Notes under the pieces: generated by a model
What the model saw: only the letters and a program-made list of their open reading frames with translations
Told to the model about the DNA's origin: nothing
Database searches by the model: none
Program-made: the position numbers and the translations under genes
NCBI RefSeq assembly: GCF_008369195.1
Contig: NZ_VOBC01000001.1
Location: forward strand, 1,984,001 to 2,048,000
Length of the DNA stretch: 64,000 bases
Direction of reading: 5' to 3'
Source: Sporosarcina sp. ANT_H38
GTDB taxonomy: Bacteria; Bacillota; Bacilli; Bacillales_A; Planococcaceae
In this document: positions 11,743-46,913 of the stretch, one piece after another
Numbering within the stretch: the first letter of the stretch is position 1
Layout: every line of letters begins with the position of its first letter

Positions 11743-11931
11743 TTGGACGATTTACCACGTTTGTTGAATCGTTCCGTGCAATGAGTGGACACTCCATCTC
11801 GTTCGTTGGACACATTAATATTATGGTTAGACACTTCACCGCCTTCGTTGAACAGTTCGGTACAATGGTTGGACACTCTCCCCCGTTCGTTGGACACTTC
11901 AACATAACGGTTAGACTATTCGGTTACGAGG
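11743..11931. repeat. Array of nine imperfect 21-bp units
   Basis: Nine contiguous 21-bp units run from 11743, most beginning TTGGACAC or TTGAAC, for example TTGGACACTCTCCCCCGTTCG minus its last base at 11869. Units 2-5 and 6-9 correspond pairwise, giving an 84-bp higher-order period, and an alternating 42-bp pattern is also visible. It lies between the converging SASP remnant and yqkK. Frames are open on both strands because the period is a multiple of three; no ribosome binding site supports translation. Confidence 0.75.
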
Positions 11932-15454: not shown

Positions 15455-15807
15455 CTCGACCAATCATATACTCGTGCGAACCAAACATATACGCCTCTCG
15501 ACCAATCATATACTCGTACGAACCGATCATAAACACCTCTCGACCAATCATATACTCGTGCGAACCGATCATAAACACCTCTCGACCAATCATATACTCG
15601 TACGAACCGATCATAAACACCTCTCGACCAATCATATACTCGTGCAAACCGATTATATACGCCTCTCGACCAATCATATACTCGTGCAAAACGATCATAA
15701 ACACCTCTCGACCAATCGTATACTCGTGCGAACCGATCATAAACACCTCTCGACCAATCATATACTCGTGCGAACCGATCATAAACGTAGCTCGACCAAT
15801 CATATCG
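15455..15807. repeat. Array of eight 42-bp units (2 x 21 bp) plus a partial ninth
   Basis: Units start with CTCGACCAATCATATACTCG at 15455 and every 42 bp to 15749, and a partial unit ends at 15807. Each 42-mer consists of two related 21-bp halves sharing the core ACC.ATCATA.AC (13 of 21 positions). Units differ at only a few bases. It lies between converging yqkD and yneF genes. Both strands are open because the period is divisible by three; the minus frame would read MIGREVF/MIGSHEY heptads, but no ribosome binding site precedes it. The rest of the 684-bp gap holds the yneF terminator and no gene. Confidence 0.85.
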
Positions 15808-29331: not shown

Positions 29332-29335
<4 letters not shown>

Positions 29336-31899
29336 CCTTTCTTAGGTCTGAGCTTTTCTTTCAATTCATGGATGTATTGCAGTGCTTGAAACGGTGTCAT
29401 ATTAAGTAAATCGGCATCATTCAGACCAGTTAACACTTCTTGTTCATCTGCTGACAAGGTAGACTGCTCTTCATTTTGGATATCAAAAAAGTTCAGTTGT
29501 TGTGGTTCATCTTCACGAACCGTTTGTTTTTCTACATTTTCAAATGTAATAAGTAATGTTTTAGCACGGTTGAGAAGCGATTCAGGTAGACCTGCAAGAT
29601 CTGCAACGTAAATTCCGTAACTTTTATCTGCCGGTCCTGCCATCACTTTATGGAGAAAGACGACTTTACCATCCTGTTCCATCGCGGCAACATGGACATT
29701 TTCAAGCCTGGACAGTTCTTTATCTAAATTGGTAAGTTCATGATAATGGGTAGAAAATAGTGTATTTGCACCGATTTCATTGTGAATATGTTCCATCATC
29801 GCTTGCGCCAATGCCATGCCATCATATGTTGAAGTCCCACGTCCGATTTCATCAAAAAGAAGAAGACTTTGTGCAGTTGCGTTTGCGATAGCGAATTGTG
29901 ATTCCATCATTTCCATCATAAATGTACTTTGTCCTGATGCCAGGTCATCCGCAGCCCCAATTCTTGTGAATATCTGATCGGTGACAGGGAGTAACGCCTG
30001 ATCACAAGGGACATAGCAACCAATCTGTGCCATTACAACAATGAGGGCCACTTGTCGCATATATGTACTTTTACCGGACATATTAGGTCCAGTGATCAGT
30101 AGCATATTTGCTTCTTCAGTCAATTTGCAGTTATTAGGAACATAAAGGGAATGGTCAATCATCTTTTCAACGACTGGATGGCGACCGTTTTTAATTTCCA
30201 AAGATTTCTCATCACGAAATACAGGTTTGACATAGTTACGTTTTTCCGAAACCGCTGCGAATGAAAGAAGAACATCCAGTTCGCTTAATACACTGGCGAG
30301 ATGCTGGATATGACGAATATGGGTTTTCATGGAATCCCGGACTAAGCTGAATAATTGATATTCAAGTTCTTGTCCTTCCGCTTCTGCATTCAGAATGAGG
30401 TCTTCCTTCTCTTTCAATTCAGGAGTTATGTAACGTTCAGCATTCGCAAGCGTCTGCTTTCTTTCATATCGTTCCAAATCGGCAAGATGGATATTGGATT
30501 TTGTAATCTCAATATAATAGCCGAATATTCTGTTGTACCCTATTTTTAATGATTTAATGCCTGTCCGCTCGCGCTCCTCGCGTTCAAGTTCTGCAAGCCA
30601 TGCCTTACCATTTTTTGATGCATCACGGTATTGGTCGAGTTTTTGATCGTAGCCGTCCTTAATAATGCCGCCCTCTTTAACCGATAGTGGAGGATTTTCA
30701 GCAATGGCCAATTCAAGAATTTGTAGCGCTTCTTCGCAACCGTCAATTCGTTCTGAAAACTGATTAAGTAGCGGTCTTTCTGATTCATGAAGCGCTTTTT
30801 TAATGTTTGGGACACGACGGAGTGAGTTACGAAGTTGTGCAAGATCTCTTCCACTCGCGCTGCCCATCGAAATTCGTCCGGCGAGCCGCTCTAAATCGTA
30901 TACTTCTTTCAAGCTCGTCTTCAGTTCATCCCGCAGGAAAAATTCTTCTATCAGTTCAGTCACTGCATCTAGTCGGTTTTCAATTGCTCTTTTTTCAGCG
31001 AGTGGCTGATGAATCCACATTTTCAATTTACGAGCACCCATTGCTGTCACTGTCTCGTCAAGTAGCCAGTAAAGTGTGCCATCCTTACTGCCGTTCCGGA
31101 TAGATTGGATCAGTTCCAGATTGCGCATTGAATTGGCGTCAATGGATAGTTTCGTTTGTTTCTGAATAAATTCAAATGGACGTATATGATCAAGTGCCGT
31201 TTTCTGTGTACGCTTTACATAGGAGACAAGCATGCTACATGCTTCTGTGACATCGGGTGGAATAGCGCCGAATAAATCCTCAGTTTCGAACTGCTCTTCT
31301 CCATACTCGATGGACAATACAATATTACGTTTTGCCATGCTGTCACTGAGAGCGAGATGCAGTCCTTCATCGACAACAACCTCTTTCATACCCAGTGCCT
31401 CAATTTCTGCAATCAGCGTCCGCTCATCGCCTTCAACACACTCCACTTTCCCCTCACCAGTCGCCAGGTCAAGATAAGCGAGTGCATACTTGTTGCCATC
31501 TATAATGTCGGCGGAACCAATGAAATGATTCGTATTTGCATCAATTGTTTTCCCTTCAGTCATCGTACCAGGGGTAATGATCTTAACGACTTCCCTTTTG
31601 ACAATGCCCTTCACGAATTTTGGATCTTCCGTCTGTTCACAAATAGCCACTTTATGCCCTTTACGTACGAGGGTTTCAATATAACCTGCAGCCGCATGAT
31701 ACGGTACACCGCACATCGGAATCCGATCGCGACTACCAGCATCCCGACTTGTTAATGTAATTTCAAGAATTTGAGACGCTTTCTCCGCATCAGTAAAAAA
31801 TAGTTCATAGAAATCACCTAATCTAAAAAATAAGAATGCATCTTCATGCTCCGATTTCACTTTTAAATATTGCTGAATCATTGGTGTGTGAGTTGTCAT
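29332..31899 (-). CDS. mutS: DNA mismatch repair protein MutS
   Basis: An 855-residue MutS. The mismatch-contact Phe30-x-Glu32 is in RLGDFYELF. The ATPase has Walker A GPNMSGKSTYMRQ, the ABC-like signature (ASGQSTFMMEM), Walker B LLFDEIGRGTST and the STHYHEL switch. The C-terminal tail includes a possible beta-clamp motif (QQLNFF). It finds mismatches and recruits MutL. Its promoter, with an extended -10 TGCTATAAT (31932-31940), lies directly beside the hairpin array upstream, so mutS does not depend on cotE transcription. Confidence 0.97.
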
Positions 31900-31931
31900 T
31901 GTTTAACCTCTTTACGTTTACTGTTTTTTAT

Positions 31932-31940
31932 ATTATAGCA
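31932..31940 (-). promoter_or_regulatory. mutS promoter, extended -10
   Basis: On the minus strand TGC precedes TATAAT, an extended -10 element. No good -35 exists at the expected place; instead the first hairpin of the array (31942-31966) occupies it. The start site would be near 31925, giving a leader of about 25 bases. Confidence 0.6.
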
Positions 31941-31941
31941 A

Positions 31942-32465
31942 AATCGGACCACGAAGAGTCCGATTTCTGCGTGATTTTGTGATCTTCAAAAATCTAAGCA
32001 AATGTCTTCGACCACGAAGAGTCCGATTTCTGCGTGATTTTGTGATCTTCAAAAATCTAAGCAAATGTCTTCGACCACGAAGAGTCCGATTTCTGCGTGA
32101 TTTTTGTGATCTTCAAAAATCTAAGCAAACACCGGACAACGAAGAGTCCGCTGTTTGTGTAATTTACGCGGGCTGTGCGGGAATTACAACAAAGTTGGGC
32201 AACGAAGAGCCCATCTTCTGCGTGATTTTTGTGATCTTCAAAAAATCTAAGCAAACATCGGACAACGAAGAGTCCGCTGTTTGTGTAATTTACGCGGGCT
32301 GTGCGGGAATTACAACAAAATTGGGCAACGAAGAGCCCATCTTCTGTGTGATTTTTGTGATCTTCAAAAACTAAACAAACTTGAGCCAAGAAAGATTCGA
32401 TGTGTCTATAATTTACGTGGGTTGCTCTGAAATTACAACAAATCCGGGTTATGATCGATGCTTAA
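31942..32465. repeat. Array of about nine 63-bp units with paired hairpins upstream of mutS
   Basis: Units begin near 31945, 32008, 32071, 32133, 32196, 32259, 32322, 32382 and 32445, a 63-bp step with small deviations. Each starts with a short stem around the loop AACGAAGA or CACGAAGA. The stem alternates between CGGAC/GTCCG and TGGGC/GCCCA. The remaining part of each unit is of two types: one forms GATTTTTG/CAAAAATC around TGATCTT, the other GTAATT/AATTAC around a GC-rich loop, so the fuller period is 126 bp. Units nearest cotE are degenerate. The array fills the 623-bp gap between cotE and mutS except for the cotE terminator. Frames across it have no ribosome binding site. Confidence 0.85.
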
Positions 32466-32494
32466 TTACAACTCCCCAAAATCACATCAAAACG

Positions 32495-32521
32495 AAAAAA
32501 AAGCCGGTGTGTTTTCCGGCT
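32495..32521 (-). terminator. Terminator of cotE
   Basis: On the minus strand AGCCGG-AAAACACA-CCGGCT is followed by eight T residues, immediately after the cotE stop codon. It should prevent most cotE transcripts from entering the repeat array. Confidence 0.88.
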
Positions 32522-32522
32522 C

Positions 32523-33110
32523 TCAAAATGACGATGATTCTCTTCCTTGTTTATGATTGTTCCCTGGTCCTTGATCATTGCCTCGCACTTGCTCATGTAC
32601 TGAAGCGTTGCCATGTTCATGAGATGATGATTCATCTCGGATTGACCATTCCTCTTCGAAACTTTGCGGGTGCACCGTAATACAAACTTTTGTTTCACCC
32701 ACAACTTCAGCAACTAATTCACGTTCAATCGTGATACAGAACTTTTCACCACATTCGGAAATGATTGCCTCAGTACAATTCGGATGCTGGACAACATCAA
32801 CAATGATTTCTTCATGCCCCGATGTCGGCTCGTCTCGATAATGCAAACGAATCCGGTCTTTGTAAGGAATTGACTCCGTAAAGACTGACGTTTTGGAATG
32901 ATCTTGATGGGAATACCAAACATTGACGTCGAACTTCCCGGTAACTTCGATGAACTTACCGACTTTTTTCGCCTGATGTGTATGGTTGATAACCCAACAT
33001 CCGAGTATACTTGTCGGTCCATTCGGCGGCTTCAATGTAACAGTCGTTTCGGTCCGCTTCTTCCCTTTAGCAATAACCGTCTTCGTCACGATCTGACGTA
33101 AATTTTTCAG
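32523..33110 (-). CDS. cotE: Outer spore coat morphogenetic protein CotE, probable CTG start
   Basis: A 195-residue CotE. Conserved segments are TKTVIAKGKK, ILGCWVINH, DVNVWYSH, DRIRLHYRD, HPNCTEAIIS and ELVAEVVGETKVCI. The C terminus is a His/Glu/Asn-rich hydrophilic tail. CotE directs outer coat assembly around the forespore. The only ATG/GTG/TTG-type start, GTG at 33089, is 28 bp from the ribosome binding site GGAGGAGG. CTG at 33110 is 7 bp after it and gives MKNLRQIVTKTVIAKGKK, which aligns without gaps to B. subtilis MSEYREIITKAVVAKGRK. I therefore choose CTG. Confidence 0.88.
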   Translation of the reverse strand: MKNLRQIVTKTVIAKGKKRTETTVTLKPPNGPTSILGCWVINHTHQAKKVGKFIEVTGKFDVNVWYSHQDHSKTSVFTESIPYKDRIRLHYRDEPTSGHEEIIVDVVQHPNCTEAIISECGEKFCITIERELVAEVVGETKVCITVHPQSFEEEWSIRDESSSHEHGNASVHEQVRGNDQGPGNNHKQGRESSSF

Positions 33111-45594: not shown

Positions 45595-46913
45595 TAATTA
45601 GCCTCCTTGCCCGATAACAGATAGACGATTTCTAGTTTAATTTCAGATGCCATCTTTTTAATATCATCTTTTGTTACGGATTCCCAGCCTGTAATGATTG
45701 TGTCTGCTGTGAAATTTTCATCAAGCTCTTTGTATTGATCAAACACTTCGATCTGCCCTCTTGCAGAATCAAATGCACTTTTAATACCGTTCGCAAGTAA
45801 TGCTTTTGTCTGTTCCATTTCAAGGTCTGTAATTTCACCTTGTTGAAGTGCTGTGAGTTGAGCATTAATTAGATTTACGGCTTTTTCTTCAAGTTCAGCA
45901 TCGATTCCTGCCATTACATAGAGAAGTCCATAATGGGAAGAATAAGAACTGGATGCGTAATACGCCATGCTTTCTTTTTCACGGACGTTAATGAAAAGCT
46001 TGCTGTGCGCAAAGCCACCGAAAACTCCGTTTGTCATTTGCATTTTTGCATAATCAGGATGTTTGAATGTAACAGGCGTAGTGAAGCCTAAATGAAGTTT
46101 CCCTTGTTTCATGTCTTGTTTTTCGCGAACATGACGGACTTCTGTTTCTTGTGTAGCCGTTTCTTGTGTAGCCGTTTCTTGTGTAGCCGTTTGTTGTGTA
46201 GCCTTTTGTTGTGTAGCCTTTTGACGTCCAAGCACTTTACGGCTCTTGAATGTCAGTAACGACCTGATTTTTTCTGTCATTTCATCTTCGTCAATGTCAC
46301 CCACAACGTAGATATCAATTTCATCTTCATTTAACATACTTTGATATGCTGTAAATAATTCTGCAGAAGTAAGTGCGTCTACTTCCTCTTCCGTTCCATA
46401 AGATGGTGCGGATGCGGCGCTATCAGGACGTAAGATTTCAAGCATACGCTTCTGGGCATATCGTGTCTTGTCATCGTAAAGCGAACGAATTCGCTCTTTC
46501 ACAGACCTTTTTTCACGGTTGACAACTGCTTCATCGAACTGTCCGTCAACTACATTCGGGTCAAAAATGACTGTCTTGATCAAGCTCAGCACTTCTTCAA
46601 GCACGCCGCCTTCTGATAGATATTCGTCATTTACACATTCAGCGGATAGAGACACCATATGGGTTTCCCCACGTTTTCCAGCATCTGTGTACAATACTGT
46701 TCCATATAATTCATCTAACGCATTGCGGAAATCCGTTTGTGACCGGTATCGCCCGTTTGATTCTTCTAAGACATTCGCCAACACTGCACGAAGAGCCGAT
46801 TTCTTTTCATCAAGTGCTGTTTTCCACTTGACCGAGAAATTGACTGTTTTGAACTGCTCTGACTTGCGGATATATAATGTGACACCCTCTTGTAACTCAA
46901 CCTTTTTGAACAT
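45594..46913 (-). CDS. ymfF: M16-like protein YmfF (inactive subunit) with a 15-bp coding repeat
   Basis: A 439-residue M16 homologue lacking the HxxEH zinc motif: the matching position reads ANVLEESNG, so it is probably a non-catalytic partner of YmfH. The substrate-binding VREKESMAYYASSSYSS segment is present. Between the two halves a linker holds about six tandem pentapeptides of type KATQQ/TATQE (DNA 46147-46222, 15-bp units), which I do not expect in this family. AGAGGTG precedes the ATG. A candidate promoter lies 45 bp upstream. Confidence 0.87.
   Translation of the reverse strand: MFKKVELQEGVTLYIRKSEQFKTVNFSVKWKTALDEKKSALRAVLANVLEESNGRYRSQTDFRNALDELYGTVLYTDAGKRGETHMVSLSAECVNDEYLSEGGVLEEVLSLIKTVIFDPNVVDGQFDEAVVNREKRSVKERIRSLYDDKTRYAQKRMLEILRPDSAASAPSYGTEEEVDALTSAELFTAYQSMLNEDEIDIYVVGDIDEDEMTEKIRSLLTFKSRKVLGRQKATQQKATQQTATQETATQETATQETEVRHVREKQDMKQGKLHLGFTTPVTFKHPDYAKMQMTNGVFGGFAHSKLFINVREKESMAYYASSSYSSHYGLLYVMAGIDAELEEKAVNLINAQLTALQQGEITDLEMEQTKALLANGIKSAFDSARGQIEVFDQYKELDENFTADTIITGWESVTKDDIKKMASEIKLEIVYLLSGKEAN
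46147..46222. repeat. 15-bp tandem repeat inside ymfF
   Basis: About five to six copies of a 15-bp unit (TGTGTAGCCGTTTCT type on the plus strand). The left copies are identical and the right ones carry point changes. Length changes would stay in frame. Confidence 0.85.

Follow-up and report, generated by a model that had tools for sequence, protein, structure and literature searches.

The tandem array between cotE and mutS in Sporosarcina sp. ANT_H38 is probably a BOX-like, genus-specific modular interspersed repeat that has been amplified next to the mutS promoter, with hairpin arms kept matched by hairpin-dependent spread, by template switching, or by both. The repeated module is dispersed, sits in several unrelated outer palindromic elements and mostly outside long open reading frames (ORFs), forms tandem arrays at other loci too, and shows paired changes in its stems. 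We propose that the mutS array arose by local tandem amplification of the inner module (hairpin B plus hairpin A) and that pairing matters, or arises, at the DNA level: copies may spread or be recognised as folded DNA hairpins, and template switching during replication may rewrite one arm from the other, either of which would keep the arms matched. Unequal recombination and slippage would alter unit number. The repeats at mutS would not be a dedicated RNA switch, and any effect on the gene would be a by-product acting on promoter context, DNA topology or cotE read-through.

The window, the whole 64,000-nucleotide stretch that was analysed, carries both genes on the minus strand, and a tandem-repeat scan of it places the array, at a spacing of 60-63 bp, in the intergenic region upstream of mutS, where a first-pass annotation had located it. 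That annotation counted nine units at about 63 bp; we recognise eight, seven with the loop NACGAAGA on the plus strand and one degenerate. The intact loops (ACGAAGA, plus strand) lie at 31951, 32014, 32077, 32139, 32202, 32265 and 32328, and the degenerate one at 32388. Bit scores for the units below come from R1, a covariance model built from 29 of 34 aligned modules (set A1).

29332..31899, minus strand: mutS, mismatch repair ATPase, flanking gene, ATG at 31899 (TIGR01070, 1105.9 bits)
31932..31940, minus strand: extended -10-like box TGCTATAAT of mutS, directly after the hairpin, named by eye
31941..31966, minus strand: A hairpin of unit 1, mutS-proximal; 9-bp stem of 31941-31949 with 31958-31966, loop 31950-31957 reading TCTTCGTG on the minus strand
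31940..32005, minus strand: unit 1, hairpins B and A (67.2 bits, E = 2.7e-14)
32006..32068, minus strand: unit 2, A stem of three pairs, alternative stem TCTTCG/CGAAGA (39.9 bits)
32069..32126, minus strand: unit 3, A stem of three pairs, alternative stem like that of unit 2 (37.9 bits)
32128..32196, minus strand: unit 4, A stem CGGAC/GTCCG, B of the GTAATT type (63.6 bits; inverted repeats I2 and I5)
32191..32258, minus strand: unit 5, A stem TGGGC/GCCCA, B of the GATTTTTG type (63.4 bits; trimmed form 33.1 bits)
32254..32322, minus strand: unit 6, A stem CGGAC/GTCCG, B of the GTAATT type (66.2 bits; inverted repeats I3 and I6)
32317..32383, minus strand: unit 7, A stem TGGGC/GCCCA, B of the GATTTTTG type (57.1 bits; trimmed form 33.9 bits)
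32380..32442, minus strand: unit 8, degenerate, loop AAGAAAGA on the plus strand, weak stem, identified from the sequence and missed by R1
32499..32524, minus strand: cotE terminator, upstream border of the intergenic region, from a scan for terminator-like stem-loops
32523..33089, minus strand: cotE, outer spore coat protein, flanking gene, stop at 32523 (PF10628, 192.4 bits)

Each unit is made of two palindromes, ordered B then A along the mutS strand. On that strand a typical hairpin B reads TGC-TTA-GATTTTTG...CAAAAATC-AC-GCA and a typical hairpin A reads ATCGGAC-TCTTCGTG-GTCCGAT, with the loop TCTTCGT. The alternation first described, CGGAC/GTCCG (32133, 32259) with TGGGC/GCCCA (32196, 32322) around a constant loop, is present, and an inverted-repeat search found the second-half stems of both types. 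The statement that every unit opens with a short stem holds for five of the seven intact-loop units, whose A stems reach 5 bp or more; at 32014 and 32077 the A stem retains three pairs, and the alternative stem of these two units uses the loop itself. Read from the sequence, unit 8 does pair through G-T as claimed, two among its five pairs, yet weakly and around a 10-nt loop. R1, whose 29 training sequences include three window units, recovers seven units with matches down to E = 2.7e-14 in the 64-kb window, so the array is not a chance arrangement. These strong matches all lie on one strand; three weak matches on the plus strand, at E 0.0056, 0.064 and 0.41, overlap strong units or lie next to them because parts of the module are palindromic. 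The window holds further tandem repeats at 15455-15805 (42 bp, 8.4 copies) and at 11763-11916 and 46144-46222 (42/84 bp and 15 bp).

The module is widespread in the genus and was found only there. Of the 68 genus genomes, 31 contain a degenerate A-hairpin pattern and none contains the reversed control; although two positions per arm are free in the pattern, Watson-Crick pairing is complete in 124 of the 126 matches listed. A covariance-model search of the same and related genomes, a check that the first-pass annotation had itself named, gave R1 (B+A) matches at E<=0.01 in 66 of the 68, with at least 1204 in sum and from 0 to at least 76 per genome; these counts are lower bounds, as the best 76 candidates per genome were scored under stricter filters. 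When the search was widened to 261 genomes from 19 genera, all 66 genomes with a match at E<=0.001 belonged to the genus, and the module appeared in none of the 193 other family genomes, for which the best 19 candidates each were scored. The window's own genome (G000) has 21 matches at E<=0.01, seven in the array and 14 dispersed. Comparison of the array with plasmids returned no match.

Eighty dispersed copies were picked by hand from the best 150 R1 matches listed. Among 56 dispersed copies with enough flank, five overlap an ORF of at least 100 aa; for the other 51 the strands of the flanking ORFs, used here in place of called genes, divide 15/14/10/9, with three copies having one neighbour, and follow no orientation rule. 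Tandem arrays also occur elsewhere, with three units in G191, two in G183 (62 bp apart, one without its 3' arm) and two in G201 (132 bp apart). The Bacillaceae-1 RNA (Rfam RF01690) lies near dispersed copies at two loci (L019 1572-1638; L021 935-1068). Module orientation is co-directional with the replication fork at 99 of 156 positions in eight genomes (p=0.001), a value to be read with the non-independence of copies in related genomes and the strand bias of genes themselves; G215 alone contributes 15 of 17, G228, G185 and G187 show no lean, and G224 was among the single-contig genomes used. Transposition strand bias was set aside on these grounds.

Rough motif sorting assigned 119 distinct modules to outer types I (78), III (7), IV (6) and II (1), with eight mixed and 19 without an outer type. 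In alignment, type IV has terminal inverted repeats, TATATATGTTGAA/TTCAACATATATA, and holds at its centre the B-A module or, in six copies, a plain hairpin; the outer element is also found without the module. A 218-bp composite in G000 corresponds to an empty site in G202, where query bases 1-435 adjoin 654-1067. At the same site the flanks are within 0-50 bp of each other in G201, G185 and G200 and about 950 bp apart in G187. No target site duplication is readable at the one empty site, where the flanks have diverged. The MITE-like outer element with terminal inverted repeats TATATATGTTGAA/TTCAACATATATA (L217, L358-L364) has many partial matches per genome, and no source transposase or IS was identified for it. 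In type I copies (L014, L036, L271 and others) a third hairpin, C, carries the A loop motif in the opposite orientation. No mobilising enzyme was found for the module, and the presence of a Y1 transposase (PF01797) does not track copy number: it occurs in 50 of 68 genomes, including both zero-copy genomes, and is absent from G000, and median copy number is 11 in the 50 genomes with it and 10 in the 18 without (p=0.79).

In A1, 91.5% of stem cells are paired and 13 of 19 pairs show both-sided changes (0/500 shuffles), with 70 both-sided cells against 18.1 in shuffles, and seven one-sided cells; further pair types are not clearly raised (83/500 shuffles as high). Set A3, 102 model matches in 91 distinct rows and leaning to the model, has 99.2% of A-helix cells paired and 44 both-sided against 5.0 shuffled. 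These shuffles ignore relatedness, and an alignment containing wrong-strand matches (A2) was left out of the counts. When the partner is shifted by 1-3 columns, pairing drops to 19-55% in A1, in A3 and in the mutS-proximal hairpins alike. Twelve arm pairs, nine of them perfect over 8 bp, occur among the 119 distinct motif-collected modules, four of whose rows come from mutS arrays. The first-pass annotation had cautioned that its covariation might count as one duplication event; that concern is removed, because independent copies across the genus change in pairs. Its suggestion of selection on folding is strongly supported in the sense that something keeps the stems paired genus-wide.

YCTTCGYN occurs in 87 of 102 A3 rows, a tally that favours the usual loop, since most copies were found by a motif or model containing it. 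Among the 14 dispersed copies of G000, an A stem of 5 bp or longer closing an 8-nt loop was recovered for eight and not for six; YCTTCGYN matches one of these eight loops, and the rest, all on 8-bp stems, are CCTGCGCT, CCTACGCT or CCTGTGCT. The loop is therefore common and not fixed, and old copies lose pairing.

Related cotE-mutS arrays turned up only in the genus (blastn over 261 family genomes, flanks checked). We took mutS upstream regions from 67 of the 68 genus genomes, leaving out G213, which has no upstream sequence; one locus (L192) has no cotE match. In nine of the 67, TTTGN-TATA(A/C)T comes after an intact A hairpin whose loop starts 59-64 nt before the mutS ATG; R1 found no module at mutS in the other 58 at E<=0.01. 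The nine carry 7, 6, 5, 2, 2, 1, 1, 1 and 1 recognisable-loop units, of which 22 of 26 have A stems of at least 5 bp. The four that keep the sequence and have lost pairing, the outcome named beforehand as counting against selection on folding, comprise two in the window, one chimeric unit in G202 with arms of two unit types, and one in G200. The nine proximal hairpins (seven distinct rows) have 98.4% of cells paired, both-side changes in seven of nine pairs, and 13 both-sided cells against 4.0 in shuffles (0/500 as high), with further pair types not raised (360/500 shuffles as high). Read by eye, the proximal hairpin fills the mutS -35 region beside the extended -10-like box, at which a promoter scan listed no -35/-10 pair. 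A-palindrome spacing is 61-63 bp in the G000, G201 and G202 arrays despite two unlike B types between. On a cotE tree of 64 genomes the nine require three changes, two forced by starred branches; because three changes are needed and many forks are weakly supported, one gain with losses and several gains both remain as histories of the hairpin. In G218 and G223 the mutS region seemed by eye to hold decayed hairpins, which were dropped as not significant (R1 best E 0.33 at L152, none at L151). A scan of named genomes gave 80 MutS loci (L037-L116), none from close kin.

The cotE-mutS region upstream of mutS is a repeat hotspot. Unrelated tandem repeats (TCTGGCGTTC..., CGCCAATAA...) occupy it in L180, L179 and L150, and large palindromes in L170, L194 and L148. 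Such other repeats at the same site in other species suggest a tolerant site, not a conserved switch. A second tandem repeat of about 21 bp (GTTGCAATTAGA...) adjoins the hairpin units in L008, L009, L010 and also L028, and the arrays of L009 and L010 grade into it. Between cotE and mutS, L183 and L187 carry a small reading frame that looks like a lipoprotein gene.

An unlikely reading, though one to be taken seriously, is that the covariation is purely mutational: template switching keeps the arms complementary without selection, and the array is inert. It overlaps the explanation that we favour and differs by denying the hairpin any role in spread. According to parts of PMC8794818, template switching in replication can change both arms at once, which would account for the scarcity of one-sided intermediates in A1. 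Units 2 and 3 resemble, by eye, a loop copied into the 3' arm, and we raised the odds of this reading because of the drifted loops in G000. Against it, most A3 matches keep YCTTCGYN while their stems vary, a contrast that is partly by construction, the loop being in the model and the copies top-scoring.

We consider it improbable that a regulator of mutS binds the A hairpins in double-stranded form, as operators whose inverted repeats flank an 8-bp spacer, the first of them covering the -35 region. The precise position before the -10 box in nine genomes and the regular A-palindrome spacing across unlike B types would suit such sites. A sequence-specific protein, however, needs conserved arms, and here the arms vary in pairs; 58 of 67 genomes are without such a module at mutS, and dispersed copies lie in all orientations to genes.

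A role in the transcript, as a leader, as a cotE-mutS terminator series or as a small RNA, is in our judgement decidedly improbable. In its favour, besides the covariation, both strands of the array fold strongly as RNA (z -4.9 on the minus and -4.1 on the plus strand; 0/100 shuffles as low), and terminator-like stem-loops number ten, the cotE terminator among them, against 0.7 in shuffles. The T tails are weak, however, and the array lies upstream of the apparent -10 box, hence outside any mutS leader from that promoter. Selection on the RNA of one strand should give more G-T than A-C among non-Watson-Crick stem cells; on small counts, we found 7 against 11 in A1 and 8 against 16 in A3 (3 against 2 and 4 against 3 in the A helix). 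This lack of strand preference fits DNA better than RNA, and three A hairpins tried as DNA fold about equally on both strands. Together, the missing G-T excess and the lack of an orientation rule to genes favour a DNA-level explanation; the earlier suggestion that the units act as RNA is not supported. In Rfam, the best match in window positions 31500-33000 is TD-2 at 25.7 bits against a cut-off of 48.7, and across 20 loci the matches over cut-off (rRNA, BsrG, Bacillaceae-1, SAM) all lie outside the module. Identity with an RNA family was dropped, the TD-2 matches being sub-threshold and the sole ones.

We give a very small chance to a more elaborate idea, in which some machinery reads a single-stranded DNA hairpin loop code, mostly YCTTCGYN, common to several unrelated palindromic elements of the genus, and the unit number of the mutS array tunes mismatch-repair expression as a heritable mutation-rate dial. 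The near-constant 61-63 bp spacing, close to six helical turns, would belong to this idea. Parts of PMC10527192 describe d(GCGAAGC) as an unusually stable DNA mini-hairpin, and the complement of YCTTCGYN carries the same C-GAA-G, which may link that mini-hairpin to the array loop. The odds of the loop-code idea were lowered because G000's own dispersed copies have drifted loops. A kissing-loop RNA in the type I outer element, with the A loop (UCUUCGU) pairing with another hairpin's loop (ACGAAGA), looked attractive by eye and is complementary over up to 7 nt in typical copies, but deserves hardly any credence and was dropped, as the two loops do not covary (a second loop was found in 67 of 119 modules, and in four of these 67 it departs from ACGAAGA; on average 5.78 of 7 positions pair, against 5.83 with shuffled partners, 1976/2000 shuffles as high).

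Several observations count against the interspersed-repeat explanation that we prefer. The proximal hairpin, kept at one place in nine genomes, could reflect local selection. No mobilising enzyme was found and no target duplication seen, the array at mutS has none of the outer parts that surround most dispersed copies, in G000 six of 14 dispersed copies gave no A stem of the expected form and most loops have drifted, and the fork lean is uneven.

Compensatory changes abound in this family, which 66 of the 68 genus genomes carry, yet it shows no apparent RNA role. RNA discovery by covariation should take note, and the family lends itself well to telling selection on pairing apart from mutation by template switching. 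Unit number at the mutS promoter differs between species, so a dose effect on mutS, and with it a mutation-rate effect, could be tested directly.

The first-pass annotation knew of no named element with this design. We likewise found no description of the family for this group in the literature, which for this purpose was open-licence papers covered mostly by listing, yet its design closely resembles that of BOX repeats, and other known systems share some of its features. REP/BIME elements with RAYT transposases are, in parts of PMC2817692 and PMC3733652, palindromic units in regularly spaced clusters mostly outside genes, whereas the units here run head-to-tail and do not alternate in orientation. 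The REP tags GTAG and CGTC occur within 14 nt either side of the A hairpin, on both strands, in 8 and 7 of 119 modules, where by our own arithmetic uniform chance would give about 20 of 119; with so few tags, no link to Y1 transposase and no alternating orientation, assignment to REP/BIME was dropped. Outer type IV is like MITEs in having terminal inverted repeats and an empty site (one site), whereas the inner module, apart from its own stems, lacks terminal inverted repeats. The bcr1 and Bhal-1 elements, as portions of PMC2267715 present them, are likewise stem-loop repeats of Bacillus genomes, a likeness at the level of description. The closest parallel is the streptococcal BOX element, which sections of PMC3049150 describe as boxA-boxB(n)-boxC with a variable number of boxB, and with boxB also placed between other outer modules in S. 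suis. The Sporosarcina inner module differs in standing also as an array without outer parts and in having stems that vary in pairs. As in BOX, it is scattered, able to fold, present in variable tandem number and common to different outer modules, a likeness of kind that rests on design and behaviour, not on sequence comparison.
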